A stretch of DNA of 64,000 bases from Anaeromyxobacter dehalogenans 2CP-1 (GTDB lineage: Bacteria > Myxococcota > Myxococcia > Myxococcales > Anaeromyxobacteraceae), in contig NC_011891.1 in NCBI RefSeq assembly GCF_000022145.1, forward strand, positions 3,764,501 through 3,828,500, given 5' to 3'. The position numbers and the translations under genes are program-made. The notes under the pieces are model-generated. The model worked only from the letters and a program-made list of their open reading frames with translations, ran no database searches and was not told the origin of the DNA. This document shows, in pieces, positions 41,664 through 60,197 of this stretch (position 1 is the stretch's first letter; every line of letters starts with the position of its first letter).

Positions 41664-41749
41664 GGGGCCGTGGCGAAACTGGCAGACGCGGGGGACTTAA
41701 AATCCCCGGCCGCGGAAGCGGCGTCCCGGTTCGAGTCCGGGCGGCCCTA
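41664..41749 (+). tRNA. tRNA-Leu(UAA), integration site of the element
   Basis: An 86-nt class II cloverleaf: acceptor GGGGCCG/CGGCCCT with one G-U pair, anticodon arm GGGGA-CTTAAAA-TCCCC (anticodon UAA), a long variable arm GGCCGC...GCGGC, and T arm CCCGG-TTCGAGT-CCGGG. Its last 24 bases form part of the attL repeat, and the integrase frame runs antisense through its 3' half. Confidence 0.97.
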
Positions 41750-43010
41750 CACTCTGAAACGCCGTCGCCGCAGGGGCGAGAACGCGAGGGGAGCCGAGTC
41801 CAGGCACCGGCTGCAGCCCTGGTGCAGCCCGCGGAACATCGAAGGCGCGCGCCACCACGCCGCCGAGCAGGTCCTCGGCGAGGTGGGTGTACTTCGCGGT
41901 CATCCTCGGGTCGGAGTGCGCGAGCAGCGCCTGCCCGGCGCCCGTCCCGCCCGCCGCCACCACCGCCGTGCCGAACGAGTGCCGCAGGTCATGGAAGCGG
42001 ACCTTCCGCGGCACCGGTCGCGCGTAGACGCTGTCGTGGCCGCAGCTCGGGCAGGCGTCCGGGATCGGTGGCGGCTGCACTCCGCCCCGCTCCTCGGTCC
42101 AGCCGCACGCGGCGCGCCGCCGGCAGCGGAGCTCGTGCCCGGTGACCAACCCGGCCCGCCCGCAGGCGCGGCGGAGCATCTTCACCAGGTTCGGGAGGCG
42201 CTTCGTCCGGTCCCACGCGAACAGGTACGCCCCCGGTGTCGCGAGCTGCCGCTCGAGGTCCGCCACCAGGTCGTCGTGGATGGGCAACCGGCGCGCCTTC
42301 TTCCCCTTCGAGATCGTCGCGTTCAGTACCTGGTGCTCGAGATCGACGTCGGCCTTCCGGAGGCCGAACACGTCGCCTCGGCGGAGCCCGGTGAAGAACG
42401 CGACCTTCGCCACGGTCCGCCAGCGCGCGAAGATGTGCGGCTCGAGCAGGGGCCACTCCGCCGGCGTGATCACCTGGATGCTCTTCTCCGGCGGCCTGAG
42501 CTGGCGCGCCTCGGGCACCGGGTTCGGCCGGCCCTCCCACGGCCCGCCCTGCACCCGCGCCGCCTCGAAGATCGCGTTCAGGTGGCCGCGGATGTGCTTC
42601 ACGCTCTTCTCGCTGAGCTCGCCGAGCTTCGCGCCCAGGAGGCGGTCGACGACCGCCGTGGTCACGTCCACCGCCGGCATCCGGCGCAGCCGCACCAGGT
42701 GGCTCGAGCACCAGGCGGCGAACGTGGGCGACCGGAGCCCGGCGCCGCGGGTGGTCCCGTAGAAGTCCTCGAGGTCGCCGAAGGTGACGCCGGTGGTCGC
42801 CCCCCGCGGGCGCGGCGCGAGGCCGGCGCGCTGCCGCTCGGCCAGGTCCTCGAGCTCGGCCAGGAGCCGGCGCGCCTCGCCGCGCAGGGCGATGGGGGAC
42901 AGCGGGCGCCCGTCGGCGCGGCGCTTCCTCACGGTGCGCTGCCGCTTCCGGCCGGCGCCGTCCACCCACTGCACCACGATCCGCTCGCCGCGCTCGAGGA
43001 TGGCGCCCAT
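41697..43010 (-). CDS. int: Tyrosine-family integrase whose C-terminus is set by the att site
   Basis: A 437-residue recombinase with the catalytic set Arg in FFTGLRRGDVFGL (about residue 205), Lys in ATISKGKKARRLP, the HxxR motif FHDLRHSFGT (about 340), His in LAHSDPRMT and the nucleophile Tyr in KYTHLAED (about 372). A CxxC-type insert (C...CGW...CPSCGH) lies just before HxxR. The last 18 residues come from the att core and tRNA-Leu read antisense, ending at a TAA inside the anticodon arm. In the circular element the frame would instead pass through attP into the segment at 58505-58834 and give 537 residues. It is coupled to the upstream HTH gene (2 bp gap). Confidence 0.93.
   Translation of the reverse strand: MGAILERGERIVVQWVDGAGRKRQRTVRKRRADGRPLSPIALRGEARRLLAELEDLAERQRAGLAPRPRGATTGVTFGDLEDFYGTTRGAGLRSPTFAAWCSSHLVRLRRMPAVDVTTAVVDRLLGAKLGELSEKSVKHIRGHLNAIFEAARVQGGPWEGRPNPVPEARQLRPPEKSIQVITPAEWPLLEPHIFARWRTVAKVAFFTGLRRGDVFGLRKADVDLEHQVLNATISKGKKARRLPIHDDLVADLERQLATPGAYLFAWDRTKRLPNLVKMLRRACGRAGLVTGHELRCRRRAACGWTEERGGVQPPPIPDACPSCGHDSVYARPVPRKVRFHDLRHSFGTAVVAAGGTGAGQALLAHSDPRMTAKYTHLAEDLLGGVVARAFDVPRAAPGLQPVPGLGSPRVLAPAATAFQSVGPPGLEPGRRFRGRGF
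41726..41754. repeat. attL core
   Basis: A 29-bp direct repeat made of the T arm, the acceptor 3' strand and 5 bases beyond tRNA-Leu. It is identical to 58834-58862. Flanking bases differ on both sides. Confidence 0.93.
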
Positions 43011-43012
43011 GG

Positions 43013-43207
43013 CTACTCCTCTGCCGTGTCCAGGTACCGGCGAAGGACCTCCGGCCGCCAGCGGTACAGCGCGCCCAGCTTCACCGCGGGCAGCTTGCCG
43101 AGGCGGCGGAGCTTGTAGACCAGCTCGACCGAGCACGCGAGGTGCGCAGCGACCTGCTCGGCCGTGAGCAGTGGTGACCCCAGCGCCGGCACGGTGGAGG
43201 TGCTCAC
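43013..43207 (-). CDS. AlpA/excisionase-like helix-turn-helix protein
   Basis: A 64-residue winged-helix protein of the MerR/AlpA type (LLTAEQVAAHLACSVELVYK, LGKLPAVKLGALYRWRPEVL). It lies 2 bp before the integrase and overlaps the XRE gene by 4 bp. It is a probable recombination directionality factor or transcriptional activator of int. Confidence 0.85.
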   Translation of the reverse strand: MSTSTVPALGSPLLTAEQVAAHLACSVELVYKLRRLGKLPAVKLGALYRWRPEVLRRYLDTAEE

Positions 43208-43410
43208 GGCCGGAGATCCTCAGCGGAAATCCCCAGGACCCTCGCGACGGCCTGGGCGGTCCGATCCGACATGAGCTGTGGGGCCTTCTCGGCCCAGTAC
43301 AGCGTCGCTCGACTGATCCCCGCCGAGACGGCGAGTTGCTCCATGCTCAGCCGCGCGCGCTGTCTCGCAGCTCGCAGAGGGCTCGCGTTCTCAGGATTGG
43401 CGCTAACCAT
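43204..43410 (-). CDS. XRE-family regulator
   Basis: A 68-residue HTH protein (SPLRAARQRARLSMEQLAVS, AGISRATLYWAEKAPQLM, AVARVLGISAEDLRP). The start at 43410 has GAGGA upstream; a longer frame to 43473 adds 21 unlikely residues. It is coupled by ATGA to the AlpA-like gene. It is a candidate repressor of the element. Confidence 0.82.
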   Translation of the reverse strand: MVSANPENASPLRAARQRARLSMEQLAVSAGISRATLYWAEKAPQLMSDRTAQAVARVLGISAEDLRP

Positions 43411-43539
43411 GACGCGAATCCTCGCTCGGTTTTCGGAATCGTCCAGCGCAGTGCACACTCTCTGGTAGGACACGATCCGTGTAGTACCGGCGCTGCCCGC
43501 GAGCCTTCCGCCAGCGGCCCCACCGCGCGCCGGAGCTAC

Positions 43540-43761
43540 CTACTCGGAGCCCGCCTTCTTCCGGCGCTTGAGCCAGGCGTCGAGGATCTCGCGCATCACC
43601 TCCGACGCATCGACCCTCCGAGCTCCGCGTTCGATCATCCGGCGCGTGGCTTCCTCCCGGAGCGCGTCATCCTGTTCCGGGGTCAGCGTCCACTGCCCTT
43701 TCACGAAGCCCTTCGTCGGCACCACGCGCCACTGTCGAGCGGGTTTCGGCGTCTTCACCAT
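43540..43761 (-). CDS. Small basic protein, possible RHH/antitoxin-like
   Basis: A 73-residue basic protein: KGQWTLTPEQDDALREEATR, then DASEVMREILDAWLKRRKKA. The middle resembles a ribbon-helix-helix arrangement, a short beta strand then two helices. A 14-bp palindrome lies 31 bp upstream. No family is certain and no toxin partner is obvious. Confidence 0.6.
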   Translation of the reverse strand: MVKTPKPARQWRVVPTKGFVKGQWTLTPEQDDALREEATRRMIERGARRVDASEVMREILDAWLKRRKKAGSE

Positions 43762-43791
43762 GTCGGGACCCCTCCGTCCCGAAGGGTACTA

Positions 43792-43805
43792 TCACGCCGG
43801 CGTGA
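43792..43805. promoter_or_regulatory. 14-bp palindrome, possible operator
   Basis: TCACGCCGGCGTGA is a perfect palindrome between two minus-strand genes. It overlaps the stop of the upstream gene and precedes the small RHH-like gene. Confidence 0.45.
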
Positions 43806-44208
43806 CAGCGTGCCTGCCGCGGCGGGGCTGAGACGCCAAGTCTGATCCGACTTCGCGCTCGACGGCGTCGAGAACCCGCTCCAGGTGTGCCGCGGCGCTG
43901 ATCAGCCTCGTGAGCTGCATCTCCGGATCGGGGAGCCGGGAAGGCTGGCCGCTCTGCTTCAGTGCGAACTCCACGAGGCCTACGTCGAGCAGCATCGAGG
44001 TCAGGGCGTCTGCGCCGCTCCCGTCTGCGGCCTGCGCCTGCGCGAAGGCGGTCCGGATGCTCGCCCGAACCCGCTCGAGACGAGGACCATCCGGGAGCGC
44101 AAGAGCCCGAGCATCCAACCGGCTGCGCTCGCGTCCCCTATCAGCGCTCAGCTGCTTCGCGCGGCCAGAGGCGGCCTCAGCCTCGAACTGTTTGTGCGCC
44201 CTCTTCAT
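43792..44208 (-). CDS. Helical protein of the element, function unknown
   Basis: A 138-residue soluble, largely helical protein with a basic N-terminus (KRAHKQFEAEAASGRAKQLS) and later MLLDVGLVEFALKQSG and LISAAAHLERVLDAVERE. It is the first gene of the leftward regulator-integrase unit. No domain is recognised. Confidence 0.55.
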   Translation of the reverse strand: MKRAHKQFEAEAASGRAKQLSADRGRERSRLDARALALPDGPRLERVRASIRTAFAQAQAADGSGADALTSMLLDVGLVEFALKQSGQPSRLPDPEMQLTRLISAAAHLERVLDAVEREVGSDLASQPRRGRHAVTPA

Positions 44209-44561
44209 TGTGAATCCTCCTGGCCACGGCTGGTTTGGGAAGGGGGCCGTGCCCTGTAATCCGGCACGCTAGCACGCTAGCACGCCAACGAGCAACACCC
44301 CTCCAGCTCTCGCGGGCCGGCGGGCCGGCGAGTTAGGGGCCGCGGTCTGAGTACAGTCGCTGCGGTGGCCTCAAGCCGCGCGGGACGCCGACTCGGACGA
44401 GCGTCCCGGGCGAGGAGTCCGGAATCGGCGCGCATCTGTGCTGCACGGCATCGGCTCGGCCTGCCGCTGGGGGTTTTGGTGTTCCCCGGGCCCGGTCGAG
44501 CCGGCGGTGGTGCCCGCGAGCTGGCTCGCCGCGCAGGCACGGACGGCGGCGCACCGGCGCG
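44209..44561. other. 353-bp gap with a short tandem repeat
   Basis: No convincing gene. It holds an 8-bp unit, GCACGCTA, three times with one change (44264-44287), and just beyond a GGGCCGGC double repeat. As the region upstream of the element's leftward regulator operon, it is a good place for its promoter and operators. Confidence 0.5.
44264..44287. repeat. Three 8-bp tandem repeats
   Basis: GCACGCTA, GCACGCTA, GCACGCCA in direct order, about 55 bp upstream of the leftward operon. They could be binding sites for the XRE or AlpA-like protein. Confidence 0.6.
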
Positions 44562-44750
44562 CTAGCCGCGGGTCCGCATCCGCGCGAGGCGCTCCTCCGC
44601 GCGGGCGTCGGCGAGGTCCTCCTCGGCCGCGACCTGGCGCAACCGGTGCCGGCGCCACGCCGTCAGCACGGCGTGCGCCGCCACGTAGCAGGAGATCCAG
44701 GTCAGCGCGAGGCCGACGGGGATCGCCAGGAGCGCGACGAGCGGGTCCAC
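44562..44750 (-). CDS. Small membrane protein, 5' end touching the IS
   Basis: A 62-residue protein with one long hydrophobic stretch (LVALLAIPVGLALTWISCYV, AAHAVLTAW) and a charged C-terminus (EEDLADARAEERLARM). Its GTG start is made by the outer three bases of the IS inverted repeat, so the original 5' end may be lost. A holin-like or phage membrane role is possible but unproven. Confidence 0.5.
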   Translation of the reverse strand: MDPLVALLAIPVGLALTWISCYVAAHAVLTAWRRHRLRQVAAEEDLADARAEERLARMRTRG

Positions 44751-46258
44751 TCAGGGACCGTGAAGTAATCCGTCCGCGCTGCGGGTGCGGCGCGGGCAGG
44801 CGCCCGGGGTCGAGCGCGCCCACCTTCGGGGACGCGGGGGCGTCGGAGGGCTCGTTCAGCCGGCGGAGCTCGGTCCGGCGCCGGGAGTCCCGTCCGGAGG
44901 CGATTAGGCCGAGAGTCTGCTCGCGATGAGACGCATGATGTTGAAGCTGATCGCGGCGAGCAGCACGATCGTCTTCACCTTTACCAGCCCTCGGACGTTC
45001 AGCCGGTCGAGTCGCCGGTGCACACGGAGATCTGCGTTCGTCCTCTCGGCGAGGACGCCGCGCTGCACGTAGACGCGCTTGGCGTCCTCTGTCCCCATCC
45101 GCACGCGCCAGGCCCCGATCGCAGGTGTGTCGTTGCGCTTCGGAGCGTGCGGATCGACGGCTTTGCTCTTCGGCTTCGGCAGCGGCGCATACGGAGTCGC
45201 GCCCCGCTCTGCGATGGCCTCGATGTTGTCGAGCGTCACGAAGCCACCGTCGACCAGGTACTCGCGTGGCGTCTCGCCCGTTCGGCGCCGGATCTCGTCG
45301 AGCATCGGCACGACGTGCGGCTGGTCGGTACCGTTGTTCGTGACGTCGGTGCCCACGATGACACCGCTCTCGTCCGTCGCGAACTGCACGTTGTAGGCGG
45401 GCCGGAACCCACCGTCCGCCATCTTCATCACGCGGCTCTCCGCGTCCGTGGTGCTGACGCGGATCTCGCCGCGACGCCTCGCGTCCGAGGGCTTCTTCTC
45501 GTCTCGCTCGACGCGCTGCTTCTCGACGACTTCGACCTCCGCAAGTGCGGCCTCGACGGCATCGAGCCGAGCTTGCGCGGCCCGCTCCTTCGCAGCCTGC
45601 ACACGCTTCGTCGAAGCTGACGGATCGCTCTCGATCTCGCGCCTGAGCTTTCGGACCTGTTCCTCGGCTTCTTTGCGGCAGCGCTCCAGTGACTGACGAC
45701 GCCGGAAGCTCGCCGCGCCGGCGCTCGCCCGGACCTTCATCCCGTCCTGCGCCACGCGCCGGAGCTGCACCACGCCTTCCTTCATGAGCGCGGCCAGCAC
45801 CTGCGTCATGAGCCGGTCGAGCTTCTTCCCGTGCTCCACGCGAAAGTCGGCGAGCGTATGGTGGTTCACCGGCACCCCGCCGCAGATCCAGCGGTAGGGC
45901 GCGTCCCGCTCGCACAGCCGCTCGAGCAACCGCGCGCTCCCCACGCCCTCCGAGTTGGCGAACAGCCACAGCGCGAGCAGCACCGCCGGGTCCGTCGCTG
46001 GCCGCCCAGCATTGCTGCCGCGCGACGCGATCTCGTCGTAGAACGCCGACAGGTCCAGCCGCTCGACCAACGTCCAGATGGCGCGAACCGGGTGCTCGTC
46101 CGGGACCAGCGCTTCGAGGTCCGTCGGCTGCAGCGAGAGTTGATTTCGGACCGGCCTCACCACCCGCGGCGCGTCGTGTTCGCTCACGCCCCGAGAAGAT
46201 CACGGCCGGCGGCCACAGTCCATGGGGCACCGGCCGATTCCTTCACGCTCTCTCAGTG
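44748..46258 (-). mobile_element. IS1182-like insertion sequence, 1.5 kb
   Basis: One transposase gene lies between 25-bp imperfect terminal inverted repeats, 44748-44772 and 46234-46258 (20 of 25 match, both starting CACT). No clear target duplication is seen. The element sits between two small minus-strand genes of the prophage and touches both. Confidence 0.82.
44904..46187 (-). CDS. IS1182-family transposase
   Basis: A 427-residue transposase. The N-terminal DUF772-type region (RNQLSLQPTDLEALVPDEHP, GRPATDPAVLLALWLFANSE, HTLADFRVEHGKKLDRLM) is followed by the DDE nuclease parts: VAQDGMKVRASAGAASFRRR, FRPAYNVQFATDESGVIVGT, YLVDGGFVTLDNIE and RVYVQRGVLAERTNADLRVH. Length is normal and the frame is intact, so the IS may be active. 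It starts with GTG. Confidence 0.92.
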   Translation of the reverse strand: MSEHDAPRVVRPVRNQLSLQPTDLEALVPDEHPVRAIWTLVERLDLSAFYDEIASRGSNAGRPATDPAVLLALWLFANSEGVGSARLLERLCERDAPYRWICGGVPVNHHTLADFRVEHGKKLDRLMTQVLAALMKEGVVQLRRVAQDGMKVRASAGAASFRRRQSLERCRKEAEEQVRKLRREIESDPSASTKRVQAAKERAAQARLDAVEAALAEVEVVEKQRVERDEKKPSDARRRGEIRVSTTDAESRVMKMADGGFRPAYNVQFATDESGVIVGTDVTNNGTDQPHVVPMLDEIRRRTGETPREYLVDGGFVTLDNIEAIAERGATPYAPLPKPKSKAVDPHAPKRNDTPAIGAWRVRMGTEDAKRVYVQRGVLAERTNADLRVHRRLDRLNVRGLVKVKTIVLLAAISFNIMRLIASRLSA

Positions 46259-46438
46259 CACCGCCGCGGGGTCGCAGTCGTGCGGAGGCACCTTGTCCGG
46301 CGATTGCGCCACGATGAGGGTGTCGCAGTTGCGGCAACGATACGCTGGCGCACTGGTGAGTCCGCCCGTTGTCGTCACTTCCATCTTCGTGAACAGCCCC
46401 TCGACGTACCCACCCACAATCAGCCGCCTCGTCGCCAT
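46253..46438 (-). CDS. Small zinc-ribbon-like protein, 3' end cut by the IS
   Basis: A 61-residue protein: ATRRLIVGGYVEGLFTKMEV, then YRCRNCDTLIVAQSPDKVPP and HDC, a CxxC...C arrangement. Its last codon and stop are supplied by the IS inverted repeat, so the product is probably truncated. The function is unknown. Confidence 0.5.
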   Translation of the reverse strand: MATRRLIVGGYVEGLFTKMEVTTTGGLTSAPAYRCRNCDTLIVAQSPDKVPPHDCDPAAVH

Positions 46439-46531
46439 GGTGATCTCCTTGTCCTACTGGTGCGGACACGGATCCATGGGGGTCTGACAATGAGTGAGAA
46501 CACGGAAAGTAGAGTGAGGTAGGCTAGTCGC

Positions 46532-46771
46532 GTGCCCTCCTGGTGGCGCTGCTCCGAGTGCAGGTGCCCGTGGACCAAGGCCGACCGCCGGCGCCGGCGC
46601 ACCGGCCTCCCGCCGCTCACGGTGGTCGCGAAGACTTGCTCGCCCCGGTGTGCCACGGTCCGCAACCGCAGGATCGTCCCGCAGAACGGCGGTGCCTGGC
46701 GCTGCTCGGAGTGCGGCGTCGGGTGGGGCGAGGCGCTCGAGCGCCCGCCGCGCGCGGCCTGCGCGAACTGA
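46532..46771 (+). CDS. Small CxxC zinc-binding protein with a doubled motif
   Basis: A 79-residue GTG-start protein. WRCSECRCPWTKADRRRRRT leads to KTCSPRC, and a second WRCSECGVGWGEALERPPRA begins a repeat of the same unit. The matching second TCSPEC lies just beyond the stop in another frame (to about 46856), so the second half looks frameshifted. Zinc binding through Cys pairs is likely; the role is unknown. Confidence 0.5.
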   Translation: MPSWWRCSECRCPWTKADRRRRRTGLPPLTVVAKTCSPRCATVRNRRIVPQNGGAWRCSECGVGWGEALERPPRAACAN

Positions 46772-46893
46772 TGCGCGGCCGGGCCCGGACCTGCTCGCCG
46801 GAGTGCGGGGCCGCCCGGGCGCGCCGGCGCCACCTCGTCGAGCGGCGCGCGTGTAGGGGAAACCACCTGCCACCAAAGTGTCGAGTTTAGAAT

Positions 46894-46899
46894 TTTATA
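46894..46899 (+). promoter_or_regulatory. TATAAA box in an AT-rich patch
   Basis: The stretch at 46879-46902, with AGAATTTTATAAAC, is strikingly AT-rich for this DNA. It lies about 50 bp before the XRE-ImmA/IrrE gene and is probably its -10 box. Confidence 0.5.
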
Positions 46900-46947
46900 A
46901 ACACCCCACTTGCGGGCGGGCGCCGTGCCCGCTAGCCTGTGGACTGC

Positions 46948-48099
46948 ATGGCATCCCACCGCACGCCAGGCCAGCTGCTCGCCGAGCTTCTTGAGGAGCG
47001 CTCCTGGACGCAGAACGTCCTGTCAGTAGTCCTCGGCATCAACAAGGCCACCATCAGCCAGATCGTGGCCGGGAAGCGGGACCTCGATGTCGAACTCGCG
47101 CTCCGGCTCGCCGAGATCTTCGATGTGCCGGTCCAGCAGTTCATGGATCTGCAGAAGTCGTATGAACTGTCGCGCGCACTCCTGACCTGGTCCCCCGATC
47201 CCGCATTGGCGCGCCGCGCGGAGTTGTTCGGCTCACTGCCGATCGCCGAGATGATCAAGCGGTCCTGGCTATCGGTCGGCGATCTAAAGGACATGCCCAA
47301 AGTCGAACGGGCAGTCGCTGCGTTCTTCGATGTCGCGGCGATCGAGGACGTGCTCACTCGTCCCCAGCCACACGCCGCGAAAAAGACCGCCGCGGGGACT
47401 CCGGTGACGCCGACGCAGCGTGCGTGGCTCCAGCGTGTGAAGCAGATCGCGCGCGAGATGATCGCCCCGAGATACTCGGCGGCCGGGCTTCGCGCCGCGA
47501 TCGAGAAGCTCTCTGACCTTCGTCTCTCCCCGGACGAGGCTCGTCACGTGCCGCGCATTGTGGCTGAGGCCGGCGTGCGCTTCGTGCTTGTTGAATCGCT
47601 GTCCGGCGCGAAGATCGACGGGGCATGTCTATGGCTGGACGAGAAGGCTCCCGTCGTCGGCATGTCTATGCGCTTCGATCGTTTCGACAACTTCTGGTTC
47701 GTGCTTCGCCACGAGCTCGAGCATGTCCTCCGTGACCACGGCCGAGACCATCCAATGCTCGACACCGAGTTGGAGGCCAGCAACTCCGTGGTCGGGACCG
47801 ACCGGCCCGAAGAGGAACGCCAGGCGGATGCCGCCGCCGCAGCGTTCTGTGTGCCGCAGAAGGATCTCGAGTCCTTCATCGCGCGGAAGAGCCCGTTCTT
47901 CGCGGACCGCGACATCGTCGGCTTCGCCGCGAAGCGCCGGATCCACCCGAGTCTCGTCGCTGGTCAGATCCGCCACCGAATGAAGCGGTGGGATTTGTTC
48001 ACGAAGCACAACGCGAAGGTGCGGTTTGCAGTTGCACCGGGTGCGATGGTCGATGGCTGGGGGAACGTCGCCCCAGTAGAGCAGGCAAGGAGCGTGTAG
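46948..48099 (+). CDS. XRE-ImmA/IrrE family metallopeptidase regulator
   Basis: A 383-residue fusion. Residues 5-70 form an XRE helix-turn-helix (LLEERSWTQNVLSVVLGINK, ATISQIVAGKRDLDVELALR) as in HigA-type antitoxins. Residues 200-330 are an ImmA/IrrE (DUF955) domain with the zinc motif HELEH in NFWFVLRHELEHVLRDHG and a later EEERQADAAAAAFCVP. ImmA-type proteins cleave a repressor in response to damage or infection. The ATG at 46948 was chosen over a GTG at 46939. Base composition is less GC-rich than the chromosome. It is followed 2 bp later by its partner gene. Confidence 0.9.
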   Translation: MASHRTPGQLLAELLEERSWTQNVLSVVLGINKATISQIVAGKRDLDVELALRLAEIFDVPVQQFMDLQKSYELSRALLTWSPDPALARRAELFGSLPIAEMIKRSWLSVGDLKDMPKVERAVAAFFDVAAIEDVLTRPQPHAAKKTAAGTPVTPTQRAWLQRVKQIAREMIAPRYSAAGLRAAIEKLSDLRLSPDEARHVPRIVAEAGVRFVLVESLSGAKIDGACLWLDEKAPVVGMSMRFDRFDNFWFVLRHELEHVLRDHGRDHPMLDTELEASNSVVGTDRPEEERQADAAAAAFCVPQKDLESFIARKSPFFADRDIVGFAAKRRIHPSLVAGQIRHRMKRWDLFTKHNAKVRFAVAPGAMVDGWGNVAPVEQARSV

Positions 48100-48101
48100 C
48101 G

Positions 48102-48590
48102 ATGAAGAAGGCGATCCTCCACCAGCGGCTCCGCCGGCAATATCAGGAGGAGACGGGTAACGCCGGTCCAGTGACGACGAACGAGGTCGCGCGCTGGGCG
48201 GTCGGGCGGAACTTTCTCCCCCTTCCAAAACCTGTAGACCCGATGACCAGGCTGGCGGACGAACTCGCCCGCTCGTGGCGGCAGGAAACGCGGCACGACA
48301 AGAACACCGGTCGCCCATACAGAGCGAACCACGCGGTCACGGAGACGGTATCGGGAACGACGCGGACGCTCTGGGGCGACATCGACCATGCGCCCCGGTC
48401 GTTCGTGCACAAGTCCTTCGTGCAGCGCCGCGAGCAGATCGTAGGGGACTGCGTCCAGCTCACCTTCGACTGCGACCACTTCAACAGTGAGCATCCAGAC
48501 GAGGAGCCAATCTCCATTCCGCTGGACTTCACTGAAGACGTGGACGAGCGGAAGTACGGCGAGGCAACCCCGGACGCGGAGGCGGCATAG
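48102..48590 (+). CDS. Partner of the XRE-ImmA/IrrE gene, function unknown
   Basis: A 162-residue soluble protein: KKAILHQRLRRQYQEETGNA, WAVGRNFLPLPKPVDPM, ELARSWRQETRHDKNTGRPY, TLWGDIDHAPRSFVHKSFVQ and LTFDCDHFNSEHPDEEPISI. Asp/His-rich patches are present but no known active site. The 2-bp spacing and AAGGAG ribosome site couple it to the ImmA/IrrE gene, as in toxin-antitoxin or two-gene defence modules. No domain is recognised. Confidence 0.75.
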   Translation: MKKAILHQRLRRQYQEETGNAGPVTTNEVARWAVGRNFLPLPKPVDPMTRLADELARSWRQETRHDKNTGRPYRANHAVTETVSGTTRTLWGDIDHAPRSFVHKSFVQRREQIVGDCVQLTFDCDHFNSEHPDEEPISIPLDFTEDVDERKYGEATPDAEAA

Positions 48591-48706
48591 AGGGCAGAGC
48601 GTCCATCGGGCCCTGTTACAGTAGGTGTGTACGGCATCGTCTACGTCGGCCGCGGGGAGCGCACGGGCCGGCGGATGATGCGAGGAGCGCGTATGGCTTG
48701 ATGCGG

Positions 48707-48743
48707 CGCGACCCGCAGCCCCTTGCACGGGCGGCGGGTCGCG
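48707..48743 (+). terminator. Hairpin after the ImmA/IrrE module
   Basis: CGCGACCCGC (48707-48716) pairs perfectly with 48734-48743 across a 17-bp loop. It lies 117 bp past the partner gene, and no T-run follows. Confidence 0.45.
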
Positions 48744-48862
48744 GGGTGATGCTGCCCGACCTAGGTCGAGACGGAACAGGACACGCGGACGGTGTCACCA
48801 CTGGACGCGCTCGTCAAGCTCTCCGCTGCGGGCGGTAACTGGAAACGAAAGGAGGCCCTCAT

Positions 48863-49024
48863 ATGAGCGGCTCTTCTATGTTCCCGCCTGTGCCGCCGGG
48901 ATGCACGGTCATCTTCCGGCGCTGGCGCAAGGACCCGCGGACGGGAGCGTGGCTCGACGCTCGCCGGTACGGGCACCGCGCGTGGCCGATGGTCGTCCGC
49001 AACGACGACGACAAGCGGCAGTAA
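48863..49024 (+). CDS. 53-residue basic protein with strong ribosome site
   Basis: The ORF begins MSGSSMFPPVPPGCTVIFRR and continues WRKDPRTGAWLDARRYGHRA. AAAGGAGG lies 7 bp before the ATG, the best Shine-Dalgarno in the element, and a strong hairpin follows 18 bp after the stop. It is probably a real single-gene unit. No family is recognised. Confidence 0.7.
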   Translation: MSGSSMFPPVPPGCTVIFRRWRKDPRTGAWLDARRYGHRAWPMVVRNDDDKRQ

Positions 49025-49042
49025 CTCGTAGCCTGCAGTGCA

Positions 49043-49072
49043 GCGGCCCCGGTGCTCCGTCGCCGGGGCCGC
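49043..49072 (+). terminator. Terminator of the 53-residue gene
   Basis: GCGGCCCCGG pairs with CCGGGGCCGC (10-bp perfect stem, 10-bp loop), followed by TCTCGTT. Confidence 0.7.
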
Positions 49073-49195
49073 TCTCGTTGAACGACTGCGCTGAGCGGCT
49101 CGCTCCCGCGCTCCGTTCGGCGGGCAATGCCACCGCGCGCGGGGCTGGAGAGGCTGGGGGAATGGCCGCTCGACAGGTCCCCGCGCGAGGCAACT

Positions 49196-50215
49196 CTAGG
49201 AGGCCAGCATCGGCGGCATCGGAAGCGCGAATGATCCGGCGCCACCGGCCTTCACCGCTTGGAACTGCACGATCTGCTGGCTCTTGATGAACGCCTTGCC
49301 CCAGTTGTTCTCGATGATCTTCTGGACCGCCACCCCTGTGCCACTGAAGGTGTGCGTCGCGGCGTGATACACGGAGAGCACTAGGTCCTGCAGCTGCTGG
49401 TCCGACTCGAGGTCATCGACTACTAGACCGAGGGTCTTCAGCTCCTCACGTGGGATGAAGCGCGAGTGAGACTTGAAGTGGTCGTGGTTGTTGAGCGTCT
49501 TCGCGATCGCCTCAGCCTTGGCCACAGCGTCCGGATGACCGCTGAGCATGTACTTGGCCAACCACGAGCCGACGAGCGACTCTGCGAGATCCGTGTGGTA
49601 CCGGCACTGCATGAGCAGCGACGGCCCGAGCGAACGCAGGATGGGCAGCCAGGTCGCGATCTTCGCGGGGTTCTTCGCGCATTCATCTTGCGCGAACTTG
49701 AACTGCTCCATGATTGCGTGGGCTGGTGCCACGCGCGTGTAAACGTCCCCGCCGGACAGGATGAACTGCGGGTCGATGGGCCCCAGGAACGAATGCTTGC
49801 CCATCAGGAGACGATCGCCGGAGCAAGCCAGCATGGTGGCAGCTGACATCGCCGCATGCGGGACGATCACCCGGACGTCGGAGAACTTCGACCGCATGTA
49901 GTTGACGATCGCCTCGGCTGCCTCAGCCGAGCCGCCCGGCGAATGAAGGATAAGGTCGACGCCCTTCGCCGCCGCCAGCCCGTGGAACACCTCCATTAGC
50001 CCTTGAAGATCCTCCATCGTGACGGAGGTCAACTGAGGGTCGGAGCCTGGCTGCGTCCATGCGGTTGCGTACAGGACCACATTCCGCCCCGTCGTCTTTG
50101 CCACCTCTTTGAGGTAGCGACGGCGAACGATGTCGAACTCAGTTCCCGGGGTGGGTGCAGGCTTCTTGGCGCGCTCTGCCTTGATCTCGTTGAGGATTCC
50201 TCCCCACGTGGGCAT
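49196..50215 (-). CDS. SDH-type serine protease of the ClpP/crotonase fold
   Basis: A 339-residue protein of the serine dehydrogenase proteinase (SDH_sah, ClpP-fold) family. The oxyanion region is LILHSPGGSAEAAEAIVNYM, and the likely nucleophile Ser lies in VPHAAMSAATMLACSGDRLL, followed by KHSFLGPIDPQF. No membrane segment is seen. Its ATG directly follows the TAG of a small upstream gene, so the two are coupled. Related proteins occur on phages and mobile islands, but their targets are unknown. It could be a defence or regulated proteolysis factor. Confidence 0.87.
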   Translation of the reverse strand: MPTWGGILNEIKAERAKKPAPTPGTEFDIVRRRYLKEVAKTTGRNVVLYATAWTQPGSDPQLTSVTMEDLQGLMEVFHGLAAAKGVDLILHSPGGSAEAAEAIVNYMRSKFSDVRVIVPHAAMSAATMLACSGDRLLMGKHSFLGPIDPQFILSGGDVYTRVAPAHAIMEQFKFAQDECAKNPAKIATWLPILRSLGPSLLMQCRYHTDLAESLVGSWLAKYMLSGHPDAVAKAEAIAKTLNNHDHFKSHSRFIPREELKTLGLVVDDLESDQQLQDLVLSVYHAATHTFSGTGVAVQKIIENNWGKAFIKSQQIVQFQAVKAGGAGSFALPMPPMLAS

Positions 50216-50425
50216 CTAGCGCTCCGATCCGTCGTTCGTCGAGTACATGGGCGCGATGGCTTCCGCGACGAGGTAGCGACCAACTTCCACCACTGCGCGT
50301 TCGTACCCCCCGTAGAGGCTCAACACGTCCATGACGCCCGGACCTGCCTCTCGGGCGGCTGCCTCCTCGATGGCCGCGAACTCGGCCTCTGCCTCTCGCT
50401 GCAGTTCTTCGCGCGACCTGGACAT
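50216..50425 (-). CDS. Small acidic partner of the SDH-type protease
   Basis: A 69-residue acidic, helical protein (SRSREELQREAEAEFAAIEE, VMDVLSLYGGYERAVVEVGR). The stop abuts the protease start (TAGATG reversed to CAT-CTA), so the two form a pair. It may be an adaptor, substrate or inhibitor. No family is known to me. Confidence 0.65.
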   Translation of the reverse strand: MSRSREELQREAEAEFAAIEEAAAREAGPGVMDVLSLYGGYERAVVEVGRYLVAEAIAPMYSTNDGSER

Positions 50426-50780
50426 GGCGTCTCCTAAGGGGTCGGTCGGCTCCAAGCGGACGGGGGACACGGACAGTATGCGCTTCCGAGGGCGAAGTGA
50501 AGAGTGGCGAGCGCGTACATGTGAACCATGCTCGGGTGACCTGTCGCGTCATCTCATTTAACGGATGCGGCGGGATGGCGTCGCGACCTGAGATGGTGCG
50601 CTCGACTGGGCGTGGTTCTGCAAACCGTCACGCTCCCCTCGAAGCGCGTCACCGCCTCGCGAACGGTATGGTCACAACGGCGGTTGCTTCGCGGACAACC
50701 TATCCCGCAACAGACGGCGACGCCGACGCTGTATCGTTCGAGCGCGCGCAAGAGGAACCGCGCCGCGCGGAGCCCTTCCG
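50426..50780. other. 355-bp divergent gap
   Basis: No supported gene. It separates the leftward protease pair from two rightward genes and so should hold both promoters. No clear -10/-35 pair stands out. Confidence 0.4.
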
Positions 50781-51059
50781 ATGACCGAGGAAGACGCAGC
50801 ACGGACTGCGACGGGACGAGCCCTCGATGAACTCGCCGCCGCGGCCAGGCAGGTAGCAGCGGCGTTCAGCACGCAGCTCCCCAGGGAGATCCGCGCCAGC
50901 GACGCGATCGCAGCCTACGCCGCCGCCCGTGCCTTGGCGGACGCCCTAGCCGTAACCTTCGGTCCCAACGTCCGTGCGCTCGCCGATCGCGTCGCGGTGA
51001 AAGTGAAGGCCGAGGTGCTCACGAACGCGGGCCTCTCGTCCGACGGGTCGACGCACTAG
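50781..51059 (+). CDS. Helical protein, function unknown
   Basis: A 92-residue Ala-rich protein (GRALDELAAAARQVAAAFST, SDAIAAYAAARALADALAVT). It probably forms helices. The stop is 6 bp before the next gene, with which it likely forms an operon. Confidence 0.55.
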   Translation: MTEEDAARTATGRALDELAAAARQVAAAFSTQLPREIRASDAIAAYAAARALADALAVTFGPNVRALADRVAVKVKAEVLTNAGLSSDGSTH

Positions 51060-51065
51060 GAACTC

Positions 51066-51437
51066 GTGGCCGAGCCGACCGCGACCCTCCAGGTCCTCCT
51101 CGCCGCGATCGAGCGGCTCGAGCGCAAGGTCGACGCGCTCACTGCGCGCCTCGCGGAGCCCCCGCCGGCGGAGGCCGTGGGCAAGCGGGAGGCGGCGCGG
51201 CTCCTGGGGGTCGACCGCTCGACGACGCTCGAGCAGCTGCTCCGCAACGGGCGGCTGCGGGCCACCAGGTACGGGGGCCGGGTTCGGATCGCCCGGTCCG
51301 AGATCCAGCGGTTCCTCGAGGAGCCGGAGGCGCCGCGCCGGCACCGCGCGGCCGCCGCGCCGCGCCGGGCAACGACGCGCCGCCAGGTCATGGACGAAGC
51401 GGCGCGACTGCGTGCGTTGAAGATCGGCGACCTGTAG
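51066..51437 (+). CDS. Excisionase-type HTH DNA-binding protein
   Basis: A 123-residue GTG-start protein. An N-terminal coiled coil (LQVLLAAIERLERKVDALTA) precedes an HTH_17/excisionase motif (VGKREAARLLGVDRSTTLEQ, LLRNGRLRATRYGGRVRIAR) and a basic tail. It is convergent with the tail-protein gene. It may regulate the element or bind its DNA; it differs from the AlpA-like gene next to int. Confidence 0.78.
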   Translation: MAEPTATLQVLLAAIERLERKVDALTARLAEPPPAEAVGKREAARLLGVDRSTTLEQLLRNGRLRATRYGGRVRIARSEIQRFLEEPEAPRRHRAAAAPRRATTRRQVMDEAARLRALKIGDL

Positions 51438-51477
51438 CGAGGAGCACGCGGGCGAGCTCCTCGGCCCGGGCTACCGC

Positions 51478-53955
51478 TCAGCTGCCACCGACGTCGGCCT
51501 CCCTGGTGACGGCGAGCACCGTGCACGGCAGCGGCTCGCGCTGGCGCACCGCGGCGCGGCCCTTCTTGTTCCAGCTCGAGAACGCGACGACCTCGGCGAG
51601 GCCGGAGAACAGCTCGGGCACGCTGAACCCGTCGCCCGGCTGCTCCCACTCGGCCCATTCGCTCTCGGGCGCGCCGGCCGCCTCCGCCACCTCGAGCCCG
51701 CGGCTCGCCTCGAGCTCGAAGGCGACGCGGGTCACGGTCTTGACCTGGTTGCGGACGTTCGCGTTCGGCAGCGCCAGGTCGAGCAGCTCGAACTCGGAGA
51801 CGTAGGGGAGGCCGACGTGCACGACCTGGTAGCCCTCGCCGTCGCCGGGCGGGAGCACGACCTGCCCGCCGGCGACCCGGAGCGGCGCGCCGGCCGCGTC
51901 CTCCCGGAGCACCCGGCCGTCCGCGAGCGCGACGACCTGGAGGCCTTCGAGGTGTCCCAGGCCGCCCACCACCGGCCCGGGGTCGGCCGCCGGGACGGCG
52001 CGCGCCGTGACCGCGGAGTCGAGGAAGATCCCCTCCTCCGCCATCACGCGCGCGGTCGTGTAGGGCTTCCCCTCGGCGTCGATCGCCTCCACCGGCTCGG
52101 TCGGGAGGACACGCGACGCCATGCGCTCGACGTAGCGGTGCCAGGTCCCGTCCCCGATCTGCCGCTTCACGATCAGGTAGACCGCGTCCTCGGTGCCCTC
52201 GGGGATGGCGCAGACGTCCTCGACGATGCCCTGCGTGTCGTGCCACGCCCAGGCCCAGACCTCTTGATCCCGGACGTAGGTGAGCGAGAGGAGCTTCCCG
52301 TCGGAGCGCACCAGCCAGGCGACGCTCCACGGGTCCTCCTGGAACGTCCACGCCTTGATCGAGTAGCCGGTGAACAGGTGCTTCGCGAGGAGCGACAGGT
52401 CGGAGCCCACGAACCCCTGGCGGCCGTCGTCGTACACCAGGTCGCGCACGCCCGAGCCCTTGGTGCGGACGTACAGCACAGCGTCGCCGACGGCGCTCGG
52501 CACGACGAGCGGGTCCAGGTAGCTCGAGCCGGCGGAGCTCTGCGGGACCGCGGTTGCCTTCCCCGGCCCGAGGACCTCGCCGCTCGGCGGCCGGATGGCC
52601 CAGACGCCGCTCTGCGTGCCGATGAGGAGCGCCGCGGCGCCCACCGCCCACCGGACCTCCTCGCGGAGCCGCCCGGCGAGCTCGAGCTCGAAGGCGTCGT
52701 CCACGAGCGCGGGCGTGTGCCTGTCGAAGTTGTAGTAGTCACCGGTCCGCGAGAGGAAGGCGTGCGCCGGGCGCTGCGCCGTGCCGAGCAGCGAGCGCCG
52801 CTCGGCGTGGAACGTCACGACGGACGGTTGCTCGAGGCGCACCACCTCGCCTGCGGGCCCGAACACCGTGAACGGGTTTCGACCCTGGGGCGGGGAGTAA
52901 CTGAGATCCGGCGTGTCGCCGGTGTCGCGGAACTCGGCGACCTCGAATTCCCCGACGTAGCCGAAGACGGTTCCACGGCCCCGGTACACGCGTCGCCCGA
53001 CGAGACGGGAGCCGTCGACTCCGGTCCACGCCCCGGAGGCCCAGAGCTTGATGGTGCGGTCCGGGAAGAGCACCACATCGGTCGGAGCGTTCGACTCGTA
53101 GACGGCGAACGGATCCGGGACGGCCCCGACGGGCGTCCAGTAGGGGTAAGTCGCCGCCGGCGGGTCACCCACCATCACGGCCTCTGGGACGTGCCCGCGG
53201 TTGTCCGCGATCACCGACTGCCAGAACTGCCCGGCGTACGAGACGCACGCGCCGAGGGGGTACGTGAAGCCGGTGTGCCAGGTGGCGCCCGCGCCGACTG
53301 CGATCTTCCGCACCCGAAGCGGGCTCGTCTCCCACTGCAGGCCGCTCTCGTCTTCCCAGATCTCCGTGACCTGCCACGCCCACTGGCGAGCCGGGTGCGT
53401 CGCGTCCGCGACGTTCTCGAGCGCTTCGACGCCGAGGTACACGACGCCGTTCGGCGCCGGGACGTCGAACGAGAGGGGGACGAGCTCCCACGAGTCGTGC
53501 GCCAGGCGGCGCAGCTCGCGCGGATCGTAGCCCTTGCACGTCAGGGTCACGACGTCGCCCTGCTGCGCGTACTTGAGGCGCGGGAGGTCCGCGGCCAGGT
53601 ACGGAGTGGCTAGCTCGTACGGCTGCGCCGAGTTGAGCGGGTCGGCGATCGTCGCGCCGCCCACGTGGAAGCGGACGTACCCCTGGCCGAACTCGAGCTC
53701 GTACGCCTGGCCGAGGTCCTCCGAGAAGATGAACGGGATCAACCGCGCGCCGCGGTCCACGCCGGCGGCGGAGTCCTTGGCCTCCCGCACGAACGGGGTC
53801 CCGGGCCGGTTGAGCGCGGCGCCCTCCGGGGACAGGAAGAAGTTGCGCGCGCGCCGGAGGCCGACCTGGTACTTCGCGAGGTCGTGGCGCCCGTGGAGCC
53901 GCGGGCCGAGCTCGCCGGCGGCGAAGGAGCCCTGGCGGAAAGGTTGGAGGCCCAT
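51478..53955 (-). CDS. Phage tail/head-tail connector protein of podovirus type
   Basis: An 825-residue protein whose N-terminus (PFRQGSFAAGELGPRLHGRH, DLAKYQVGLRRARNFFL, EGAALNRPGTPFVREAKD) matches a well-spread phage family annotated as stabilisation or tail tubular-like protein. The rest is beta-rich, with repeated Trp/Tyr and Gly loops, as in beta-propeller-like tail parts (VVFPDRTIKLWASGAWTGVD, HAFLSRTGDYYNFDRHTPAL). It is the last gene of the leftward structural operon, 25 bp after the scaffold-like gene. It is full length and intact, which is odd for an element that lacks capsid and portal genes. Confidence 0.82.
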   Translation of the reverse strand: MGLQPFRQGSFAAGELGPRLHGRHDLAKYQVGLRRARNFFLSPEGAALNRPGTPFVREAKDSAAGVDRGARLIPFIFSEDLGQAYELEFGQGYVRFHVGGATIADPLNSAQPYELATPYLAADLPRLKYAQQGDVVTLTCKGYDPRELRRLAHDSWELVPLSFDVPAPNGVVYLGVEALENVADATHPARQWAWQVTEIWEDESGLQWETSPLRVRKIAVGAGATWHTGFTYPLGACVSYAGQFWQSVIADNRGHVPEAVMVGDPPAATYPYWTPVGAVPDPFAVYESNAPTDVVLFPDRTIKLWASGAWTGVDGSRLVGRRVYRGRGTVFGYVGEFEVAEFRDTGDTPDLSYSPPQGRNPFTVFGPAGEVVRLEQPSVVTFHAERRSLLGTAQRPAHAFLSRTGDYYNFDRHTPALVDDAFELELAGRLREEVRWAVGAAALLIGTQSGVWAIRPPSGEVLGPGKATAVPQSSAGSSYLDPLVVPSAVGDAVLYVRTKGSGVRDLVYDDGRQGFVGSDLSLLAKHLFTGYSIKAWTFQEDPWSVAWLVRSDGKLLSLTYVRDQEVWAWAWHDTQGIVEDVCAIPEGTEDAVYLIVKRQIGDGTWHRYVERMASRVLPTEPVEAIDAEGKPYTTARVMAEEGIFLDSAVTARAVPAADPGPVVGGLGHLEGLQVVALADGRVLREDAAGAPLRVAGGQVVLPPGDGEGYQVVHVGLPYVSEFELLDLALPNANVRNQVKTVTRVAFELEASRGLEVAEAAGAPESEWAEWEQPGDGFSVPELFSGLAEVVAFSSWNKKGRAAVRQREPLPCTVLAVTREADVGGS

Positions 53956-53980
53956 CAGGTCGTCTCCCCTCGGTGAACGC

Positions 53981-54751
53981 TCATCGGCGAGAACCTCGCG
54001 CGTCCCGGAGCGCCGTGCCCACGCGAACCAGTAGCCGGACGAGCTCGGGATGGTTGCCGTATCCGTGGGCGTCGAGGGCCTCCTCCAGCTCCCTCGTGCC
54101 GAACTCGGAGACGACGTCGCGGGCGATGCCGATCGACGAGTCGAACCGGTCGCCGCCGATCTCCTGGTCGTCGCGCGCCGCCTTCTCCCACGAGGTGACC
54201 TGGGCATCCCAGGTCTCGCGCCACGCCTCGAGGGACCGCTCGTGCATCTCGAGGAACCTGCTCGCCCCTTCCCCGTCGAGACCGAGCTCGTCCGCCACCT
54301 TTTTGAACTCGCCGAGGATCGGGTCAGCCGGATCCATCCCTGCAGGCGCCTCGAGATCGAGTGGCGACTCCGGAGCGGCCGCGGGTTCGGTCGGCTGGCG
54401 CTCGCGGCGTTCCTCGCCGTCGCCCTCCCCCTCCACCTCCGACCCGCCCACCCCCTCCGGATCGCCGTCCAGCTCCGCCTGCATCTTCGGGTAGAGGACG
54501 CGCCCGGGCGCGCCCGGCTCGCCGTCCGCACCCCGGCGTCCGTCCTGGTCGCTGGCGACCTCCGGCCTGCCGCGCGGCGCACCGGCCGCCGATGGCATCG
54601 TGCGCGCGTACATCTGCTCCATCCGCGCGCGCGGACTGCTCTGCTTCTCGGGTTCGAGGCGAACCTGCGTCGGGGCCGGGTCCTGCGCCTTCGCCCCCTC
54701 CTGCTCCATCGACTTGTAGAGCTTCCCCCCGATGTCGTCTGCCACGCCCAT
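53981..54751 (-). CDS. Capsid scaffold/assembly-like protein
   Basis: A 256-residue acidic protein. Residues 20-130 are disordered and Pro/Glu-rich. The C-terminal half is helical, with ILGEFKKVADELGLDGEGAS, AWRETWDAQVTSWEKAARDD and the phage scaffold-like end ALDAHGYGNHPELVRLLVRV. It carries the motif LYPKMQAEL shared with the next gene upstream. Scaffolds guide capsid assembly, yet no capsid gene follows. It is tightly packed with its neighbours. Confidence 0.7.
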   Translation of the reverse strand: MGVADDIGGKLYKSMEQEGAKAQDPAPTQVRLEPEKQSSPRARMEQMYARTMPSAAGAPRGRPEVASDQDGRRGADGEPGAPGRVLYPKMQAELDGDPEGVGGSEVEGEGDGEERRERQPTEPAAAPESPLDLEAPAGMDPADPILGEFKKVADELGLDGEGASRFLEMHERSLEAWRETWDAQVTSWEKAARDDQEIGGDRFDSSIGIARDVVSEFGTRELEEALDAHGYGNHPELVRLLVRVGTALRDARGSRR

Positions 54752-54754
54752 TGG

Positions 54755-55042
54755 CTACCTCCTCGAGTTGCGACCACCGCGCCGGGCCTGCGCGACAGCG
54801 CTGGTCACGGCGCGTCGGTGCGCGGCGAGCAACGGCTCGGCCTTCTCGCGCGGGAGCCCCAGCTCGACCATCGCCCGGAGGAACCGGTCCTCGGCGGCAC
54901 CGCCCGCATTGGCGCCGGGCGGCTTGGTCGCCCCCGGTCCGCGCTCGGGCGGCGGTCGCTCCCCCGCGCGGACCCGTGCGCCGCCGAGCTCGGCTTCCAT
55001 CTTCGGGTACATCGACTTCGGGAAGCGGTGCCCCGAGTTCAC
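54755..55042 (-). CDS. Small protein sharing a YPKM-AEL motif with the scaffold-like protein
   Basis: A 95-residue GTG-start protein with MYPKMEAEL near its N-terminus, a disordered middle, and a helical C-terminus (AAEDRFLRAMVELGLPREKA). It overlaps the upstream gene and ends 3 bp before the scaffold-like gene. No family is recognised. Confidence 0.65.
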   Translation of the reverse strand: MNSGHRFPKSMYPKMEAELGGARVRAGERPPPERGPGATKPPGANAGGAAEDRFLRAMVELGLPREKAEPLLAAHRRAVTSAVAQARRGGRNSRR

Positions 55043-55677
55043 TTTCCGTCCTCTTCGGCCCGGTCACCGTGGAGGTACGCGCGCTGCCGCTTCACCCCCA
55101 TCTCGCGAACCGTGAGGAGCGCCCTCGCGATCCCGTCCCACAGCTCGCCCTCGGCCTCCGAGATGGTCGAGAAGACCGTCCCGCCGGTGTGCGTTCCCGG
55201 CGCCCCACCGGACCCGACGCGCACCGCGTCCCCGAGTGCCCTTCGCGCGGCGACGAGATCCCGGTGCGCCGCGAGTCGCTGGCGGACCTGCTGCTCCAAG
55301 TTGAGGAAGTACTCGCCGAGGGACACGACGTCCTTCCGGACCTGCTCCTGGAGGTCCTGCAGCTCGAGCTTGTCTGCCGCGAGCTGGACCTCCGCCAGGT
55401 CGGTCTCGGCCTTCTGCGCCGCCGCACGGGAGGCCGCGAGGGATGCCTTGAGCGTGCGCTGCTTCCGCCGCGCGTTCTCCCGCTCGAGGAGGTCGTTCTG
55501 CGTGACCTCCGGAGCATCCTCGATCGCGCGCAGCGTCTCCTGAACGGACGCGATCTGCGCCTCGAGATCGCGCACCGCGGCCTCGCACTGCTCGCGCCTC
55601 TCTTCGGCCGCCTTCACCTTCGCGGCAACCGCGTCCCTCAACTGTTGGGTCGCAACCGCTTCCACCTCTTCGATCAT
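55039..55677 (-). CDS. Coiled-coil structural-region protein
   Basis: A 212-residue protein, almost wholly heptad-rich (VKAAEERREQCEAAVRDLEA, RRKQRTLKASLAASRAAAQK, LQDLQEQVRKDVVSLGEYFL). Its C-terminus is a short globular part (EAEGELWDGIARALLTVREM). It overlaps the next gene by 4 bp. It sits where phages carry portal or capsid-assembly genes but resembles neither. Confidence 0.7.
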   Translation of the reverse strand: MIEEVEAVATQQLRDAVAAKVKAAEERREQCEAAVRDLEAQIASVQETLRAIEDAPEVTQNDLLERENARRKQRTLKASLAASRAAAQKAETDLAEVQLAADKLELQDLQEQVRKDVVSLGEYFLNLEQQVRQRLAAHRDLVAARRALGDAVRVGSGGAPGTHTGGTVFSTISEAEGELWDGIARALLTVREMGVKRQRAYLHGDRAEEDGK

Positions 55678-55752
55678 GTCCGTCTCCTGTGGTGATGCTG
55701 CTTTCCCGGCGCGCCCCCGTCGCGCGCCTCGGTCTCTTTGCGGCGAGCTGCG

Positions 55753-56100
55753 TCAACCCTCGTCGCTGTCCTCCTCCTGGTGGTCTTCGTCGCTCTCGTG
55801 CGCGCCACGCTCGACGATGCCTCGCCTCGAACGGTGCCCGTCCAGCATTGGCCCGGCGTCGGCCCGCACCTCGCGCCAGGCGTGAGGGAGGACGGGCCGA
55901 GCCACGCCGTTCACCACTCGCCACCCGGGAGCCAGCTCGCTCGCCGGCAGGCGTACGATCTCGCCGGGCTCGTACATCCGCCCGGCGCGGTAGTACGGCA
56001 CGCCAACGGGCGCGCCCGGGATCCGATAGGTCTTGGTGGTCGCCGGCCCGCCGATCGGGCACCGGTCGATGCCAGGCTCCCGCGCCGCGCAGCGCTTCAC
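55753..56100 (-). CDS. Small beta-rich protein of the structural region
   Basis: A 115-residue protein: KTYRIPGAPVGVPYYRAGRM, YEPGEIVRLPASELAPGWRV, with an acidic tail HESDEDHQEEDSDEG. The middle looks like a short beta barrel. It overlaps the TerS-like gene by 4 bp. No family is known to me. Confidence 0.62.
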   Translation of the reverse strand: MKRCAAREPGIDRCPIGGPATTKTYRIPGAPVGVPYYRAGRMYEPGEIVRLPASELAPGWRVVNGVARPVLPHAWREVRADAGPMLDGHRSRRGIVERGAHESDEDHQEEDSDEG

Positions 56101-56588
56101 CTTGCACCGCCGAGGATCGTCTCGAACCGCCGTGAGGCGCCGGTCGCGGGCGGCGCGCTACACAGCGCCCATCGAGCCGCGCAGGCGGCGAGGAGCTCCT
56201 CGACACGCGCGAGCCGCGCATCGAGATCCTGGCGGACCGTCAGCGTGGCGTGCGCCTCGATGACGGCCTGGGCGGCGCGGGCTGCCACGTGATCGGACTT
56301 GGCACCGCGCGCGAGCTGGACCAGGCGATCCGCGGCCGATGGAAGACCGTTCCGGAGACGGGTCACGGCATCCCGGATGACCTCGCCGCGTGCGGCCTCG
56401 ACCTCCGCCCAGCACTCGGGGATGGCGCGCCAGCGCTGAACCGTTCGCACTGAGAGGCGCACGTGCTTCGCTACGTCCTCGGTCCGGGTGTGCTGGACGA
56501 AGGCGGCGAGCAGTCGGTCATGGTAGACGCGCTTGCGGTACGAACTGCGGCGCCTCGCGCCGTTCATGGGGGTGACAGAGGCGGTCAT
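56097..56588 (-). CDS. Terminase small subunit-like HTH protein
   Basis: A 163-residue protein with an N-terminal helix-turn-helix (LLAAFVQHTRTEDVAKHVRL, SVRTVQRWRAIPECWAEVEA) and a long helix (QAVIEAHATLTVRQDLDARL) that could form an oligomer. This is the look of phage TerS, which marks DNA for packaging. The start at 56588 has GAGGAG upstream. The large terminase subunit that normally follows is missing. Confidence 0.65.
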   Translation of the reverse strand: MTASVTPMNGARRRSSYRKRVYHDRLLAAFVQHTRTEDVAKHVRLSVRTVQRWRAIPECWAEVEAARGEVIRDAVTRLRNGLPSAADRLVQLARGAKSDHVAARAAQAVIEAHATLTVRQDLDARLARVEELLAACAARWALCSAPPATGASRRFETILGGAR

Positions 56589-56599
56589 CGAGCGGCTCC

Positions 56600-60159: not shown

Positions 60160-60197
60160 TCGAAGCTCATGAAGCTCACGGAGAGGGAGCAGCCCCC

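Follow-up and report, generated by a model that had tools for sequence, protein, structure and literature searches.

Introduction

PD-lambda-2, a three-gene anti-phage system of E. coli, is built from a HigB-like protein A, a HigA-peptidase B and the product of a third gene, C. It is an abortive-infection defence in which B alone is toxic and A rescues the cell; C is needed for defence, and neutralisation does not require this third gene (PMC9519451). In RosmerTA, HTH-ImmA proteins (RmrA) have been verified as antitoxins of defence systems with varied partners (PMC10440598). In the parts of Makarova 2009 (PMC2701414) that concern them, Xre-COG2856 zincin fusions occur with RelE or PIN toxins, and those encoded beside a RelE/HigB-like toxin gene are predicted to form three-component toxin-antitoxin (TA) systems.

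The locus considered here encodes a fusion of this kind (gene B) followed by a 162-aa partner (gene C). It lies in the window, that is the whole stretch of 64,000 nucleotides that was analysed, within a genome that consists of a single contig of 5.03 Mb. The assignment of the module to the HigA-ImmA/IrrE class is well supported, and it is fairly likely that B-C represents a mobile, self-regulated module of that class that lacks HigB, with the A-B-C form as its sister and PD-lambda-2 as a relative.

The locus and its surroundings

Table 1. Coordinates of the B-C module and of neighbouring features in the window
Feature	Position	Strand	Basis
Gene B, HigA-type HTH-ImmA/IrrE zinc peptidase fusion	46948..48099	+	profile matches and HELEH motif
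Gene C, 162-aa partner, apparently undescribed family	48102..48590	+	ORF, homologue set, no match to a known family or fold
Upstream region of B (promoter/operator), 110 bp	46838..46947	+	homology to paralogous site ends at 46837
Imperfect palindrome GTTTAGAATTTTATAAAC, putative operator for the HTH of B	46885..46902		inferred by reading the sequence
Accessory island/prophage-like element holding B-C, 19.0 kb	41751..60749		missing from G002
tRNA-Leu (TAA), island integration site	41664..41750	+	ARAGORN; syntenic tRNA-Leu at the empty site of G002
Tyrosine-recombinase integrase	41697..43136	-	Phage_integrase 5.8e-20
Tail protein	51481..54777	-	phrog_376, 3.4e-154
IS in the left flank, outside the module (transposase 44904-46187)	44751..46254	-	DDE_Tnp_1 and DUF772

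In the close relative G002 the positions corresponding to 41750 and 60750 of the window map 10 bp apart, beside a syntenic tRNA-Leu, and form an empty site of the island. The island is called prophage-like because it encodes a tail protein together with weaker head or packaging matches. With the tRNA-Leu, the integrase and the absence from G002, this agrees with the preliminary description, which had placed the pair on a prophage-like element and had also rightly noted that it is less GC-rich than its surroundings (B-C has 64.3% GC, the island 70.4% and the remaining window 73.6%). Convergent with the module, an SDH/ClpP-like serine protease is encoded at 49196-50215 on the minus strand (SDH_protease 9.8e-19, phrog_11747 6.2e-87).

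The end of the IS in the left flank has about ten occurrences in the genome. The segments on its two sides, 44555-44750 and 46255-46837, run on without a break at L149, a paralogous site in the genome; the IS therefore landed beside the module. Homology with this site stops 110 bp before B. There the place of B-C is occupied by an N6 methyltransferase-Mrr-type domain fusion, and this replacement suggests that the locus may serve as a spot for exchangeable accessory genes. A match on the right side is weak (68-bp, 49128-49191) and too short to rely on. The paralogous site (L149:4906-7437, G000:C1 about 4184905-4187436) shares a Cys-rich gene region with window 46255-46837.

As to the AT-rich promoter once proposed in front of the pair, the AT-rich stretch is present (46880-46905, 31% GC) and a sigma-70 promoter scan found no promoter. 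The imperfect palindrome GTTTAGAATTTTATAAAC is a plausible candidate operator for B, and AT-rich palindromes precede B also in L018, L020 and L046. The segment 46870-46897 was considered as a transposon repeat end and was judged to be the putative operator palindrome instead.

Gene B

Gene B starts with ATG (an in-frame GTG at 46939 is an alternative start) and its product has 383 aa. Residues 11-64 (about 46978-47139) match HTH_3 at 3.7e-10, and the TIGR02607 HigA model is matched at 2.6e-13 with 49.6 bits, above the cut-off of 47.7, by which B carries a HigA-family antitoxin domain. Residues 217-310 (about 47596-47877) match Peptidase_M78 (IrrE) at 3.3e-6, and the HELEH motif occupies residues 255-259 (nucleotides 47710-47724). 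HExxH is kept in 69 of 69 B homologues and an E..A motif downstream of it in 64 of the 69 sequences; the latter is read here as the probable third zinc ligand. Over residues 16-355, thus near its full length, B matches the PADLOC model PD-Lambda-2_B (PDLC03982) at 2.1e-43, and B homologues reach 1e-44 to 2e-49. Matches to the RmrA models are partial, at 2.2e-8 and weaker, well below the PD-Lambda-2_B score.

The coordinates and the HTH_3, HigA and Peptidase_M78 matches bear out what had been described, namely an HTH-metallopeptidase fusion and a 162-residue partner 2 bp apart. The idea that the two form a TA or defence unit is upheld as far as the relation to such systems goes (the PD-Lambda-2_B and HigA matches); what had been missed is that the unit represents the A-less form of a larger (HigB)-HigA/ImmA-C family akin to PD-lambda-2.

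Gene C

Gene C begins with ATG 2 bp past the stop of B. It found no family in Pfam, NCBIfam, PADLOC or PHROGs (the best NCBIfam row had E 0.036, far under its cut-off, and no PADLOC model answered even at E up to 1), and PDB sequences gave no match. When 31 C homologues were searched against Pfam and PHROGs, single stray matches aside, again no family was obtained. The 31 homologues are divergent and share the invariant residues R74, N128 and D146; no recognisable catalytic motif is seen in the sequence of C. By these searches C appears to be a previously undescribed protein family, as had been supposed of the partner.

Structure prediction, proposed earlier as a check, yielded a confident AlphaFold model (pLDDT 93.5, pTM 0.74) with no convincing match to a solved fold. 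It comprises helices 3-18, 26-35 and 47-61, then a beta hairpin ending at residue 93; in the C-terminal part residues 99-130 form a long helix and residues 144-152 a short one. Foldseek reached at best E 0.96 against the PDB and E 0.08 (TM 0.47, a nameless match) against a viral library, and the best VIA-align Z was 3.8 for the whole of C and 3.3 for the N-terminal 97 residues alone. A winged helix was considered from the three helices and hairpin, with FoxP2 and PadR chains in weak rows, and is not supported by the scores. Failure to find a structural match to the predicted model is no proof of a novel fold.

Homologues of C come from myxobacterial genomes, the order of Glaciimonas, three plasmids, one phage and about 40 viral contigs; among phage and plasmid records with C, one is a phage and three are plasmids. 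No DNA match to C was found in E. coli. In a congeneric genome roughly the last 32 residues of C are all that is left, at L007:1501-1608 (75% identity), the trace of a copy that has been lost, and at L068:2619-3437 an element with the terminal repeats GGTAGTGNNTCAGTTTGAAATT is seemingly inserted inside a C gene.

The pair and its HigB-like neighbour

Both genes are whole in 51 loci (41 after dereplication), with B always before C and a spacing of 0-33 bp, and C without B was met solely at contig ends or as fragments. The distance matrices of B and C are correlated (Mantel r 0.82, 0 of 5000 permutations). The computable B or C pairs have dN/dS values of 0.005-0.18, several pairs being saturated; B and C are under purifying selection. 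Because of this co-inheritance, the matrix correlation, the dN/dS values and the retention of HExxH, B-C is regarded as a functional pair and not as chance neighbours. The co-occurrence analysis advised in the preliminary description hence speaks for the pair, and neither lack of conservation nor a housekeeping partner, which it had named as arguments against its own proposal, was observed. The spread is patchy: the module is intact in 5 of 195 genomes of the phylum and in 5 of 399 of another order, congeners have none or a remnant at most, and its settings include plasmids, transposons and varied prophage contigs.

A HigB-like gene, A, stands directly before B in 28 of 50 distinct B proteins and is missing in the other 22. 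The A of one relative matches Pfam HigB-like_toxin at 3.8e-8; the A proteins of relatives that were tested gave no match among PADLOC models. No HigB toxin gene adjoins B in the window, and no remnant of A was detected in six frames of 43901-47000 by tblastn with two A proteins and by a profile. The PD-lambda-2 A model (PDLC03981) had no match in the genome. Elsewhere in the genome, at G000:C1:4178891-4179937 (L016:6844-7977, minus strand), lies a homologue of PD-Lambda-2_C (1.9e-48), with no A or B gene found there.

In the B tree, the window protein belongs to a clade made up of 18 B proteins without A, supported at 98/87 (100/98 for 17 of them), and its nearest kin come from three genomes of the same order. 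Since this clade is well supported, the A-less form is best seen as an old, stable two-gene lineage and not as a freshly broken PD-lambda-2. The presence and absence of A need five changes on the tree, so A was acquired or lost repeatedly. As the tree is rooted at its midpoint and has a few long rows, it does not settle the direction of these changes.

Relatives as transposon cargo

In seven loci (L009, L010, L025, L026, L033, L034 and L041) B-C or A-B-C adjoins a divergent IS1-like transposase inside the 22-nt terminal inverted repeats GGTAGTGNNTCAGTTTGAAATT. Exact 8-bp target duplications flank seven of eight complete elements, that is six of these seven loci and L127, an element obtained through the terminal-repeat search itself. 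Two loci in genomes (L146, L147) have the same transposon layout, and the myxobacterial relative L002 has retained the right-hand repeat. The module of these relatives, B-C or A-B-C, is carried as cargo by IS1-like transposons. The mobility expressed in the earlier term "cargo module" is thus supported by this cargo and by plasmids and prophages, the transposon-borne relatives themselves having been overlooked. A literature search on IS1-family elements with anti-phage cargo found no paper in the collection searched.

The window copy was also considered as such a transposon and rejected: terminal repeats, a transposase of that family and the small basic gene are all missing near the module, and the repeats had no match in 43001-52000 with up to 5 mismatches. 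The small basic gene usually lies convergent behind C in the seven loci. Its product has about 70-100 aa with a GGKARAAKLTPEQR motif and no Pfam match, and the gene recurs beside the cargo of these transposons, at L002:590-847(-), L009:6447-6656(-), L026:3544-3807(-) and others.

The same repeats also enclose other cargo (L064, L080, L082, L097, L100, L110, L114, L133 and L134), namely HTH-IrrE proteins with different partners (RosmerTA-like), an OLD-like ATPase, a DNA methyltransferase and unknown pairs, the names being assigned by eye and not by profile; 8-bp duplications flank several of these elements. Five elements of about 0.4-0.5 kb (L071, L091, L112, L113, L119) have the repeats without a full transposase and look like non-autonomous derivatives.

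Possible function and alternative explanations

On the sequence data, B-C is probably toxin-antitoxin-like with an anti-phage role. In the proposed mechanism B would repress the shared promoter via the palindrome just upstream and would keep C bound to itself; phage infection, DNA damage or a similar trigger would engage the metallopeptidase domain or titrate B, and C, set free as the effector, would halt growth or the phage. It is quite possible, and is put forward tentatively, that C is the effector or toxin and B the antitoxin-repressor and peptidase, the effector role of C being a guess; against it speaks the fact that C has no catalytic motif or known fold. A role of C as an accessory sensor or adaptor is unlikely, and some other division of roles between the two proteins more unlikely still. 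A further-reaching reading, possible but somewhat improbable, makes C the founder of a new effector or antitoxin family whose fold is undescribed, and B-C an autonomous two-gene abortive-infection system spread by a family of IS1-like transposons, through 8-bp-duplicating transposition, as one defence cargo among many that can be exchanged.

The roles could also be reversed, with B toxic and C its dedicated antitoxin that replaces the HigB-like A in the A-less clade. The B of PD-lambda-2 is toxic alone and rescued by its partner A (PMC9519451), and would therefore point to C as the neutraliser in the A-less form; the whole clade lacks A, yet always retains C, and the operon order with its close spacing favours coupled synthesis. 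Related HTH-ImmA proteins, however, are antitoxins in RosmerTA (PMC10440598), and the third gene of PD-lambda-2 is both dispensable for neutralisation and unrelated to C; toxicity of B is possible but somewhat improbable. A lysogeny or excision switch of the host element on the pattern of the ICEBs1 pair ImmR/ImmA, in place of a TA or defence unit, would suit an HTH and an ImmA-type peptidase inside an integrase-bearing island. Such a switch is hard to reconcile with the occurrence of the same pair in transposons, plasmids and diverse prophage contigs, and in the window some 4 kb and an IS separate the pair from the integrase, which leaves this reading little probability.

Even less is to be expected of the window copy being a decayed PD-lambda-2-like A-B-C that lost its HigB gene to the IS upstream. 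The transposase does lie upstream, and A does precede B in more than half of the B proteins (28 of 50), but the six frames searched (43901-47000) hold no remnant of A, the A-less state belongs to an old clade, and purifying selection acts on B and C, both of which are intact. Loss of A through the IS was rejected, since the sequences on its two sides adjoin each other in L149 and the IS had thus gone in next to the module. IrrE and other solitary HTH-zincin proteins control stress genes, and the pair might by analogy be ordinary chromosomal regulators, neither selfish nor defensive; a pair so rare, patchy and mobile, with congeners that lack it or keep a remnant, makes this very improbable too.

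If the preferred reading of B-C as a TA-like module is right, the HigA-ImmA/IrrE group of TA-like defence systems gains a protein family that had not been described. The module also offers a natural dissection of PD-lambda-2-type systems, with one clade that lives without HigB on B and its partner, and the comparison of A-B-C with B-C can reveal the role of each part. The IS1-like cargo with its clear ends is a concrete route for the spread of the module between phyla, islands, plasmids and prophages.

Comparison with known systems

With ImmR/ImmA of ICEBs1 the module shares an HTH and an ImmA peptidase; it differs in being one fused protein, in the partner C and in its presence in many unrelated elements. 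From the Xre-COG2856 systems it is set apart by the C family, which is not described in the parts of Makarova 2009 (PMC2701414) on these fusions. The N-terminal HigA domain, and the HigB-like gene of the A-B-C form, recall type II HigBA; the peptidase fusion of B, the obligatory third gene C and the missing HigB in the clade of the window do not. As in RosmerTA (RmrT/RmrA), an HTH-ImmA/IrrE protein is combined with a variable partner of unknown family and is phage-borne. In RosmerTA antitoxin and defence roles have been shown, and the RmrA models fit B far less well than PD-Lambda-2_B does. Among the PADLOC models none is matched by C; the RmrT toxins are diverse, so C may yet be a partner of RmrT type.

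The closest likeness is to PD-lambda-2. B of the window is a near full-length relative of PD-Lambda-2_B, and many relatives carry a small HigB-like A before B and a third gene after it, in equal order. In contrast to PD-lambda-2, the window has no A and the A of relatives is without a PADLOC match, and C, with 162 aa, is unrelated to PD-Lambda-2_C (374 positions): an identification of the two was rejected, as comparing the C family with a PDLC03983 homologue by hhalign gave E 0.45 and a probability of 0.1%. Because two defining features fail, with no A and an unrelated C, the module is not taken to be PD-lambda-2, yet it may work like a member of the PD-lambda-2 class.
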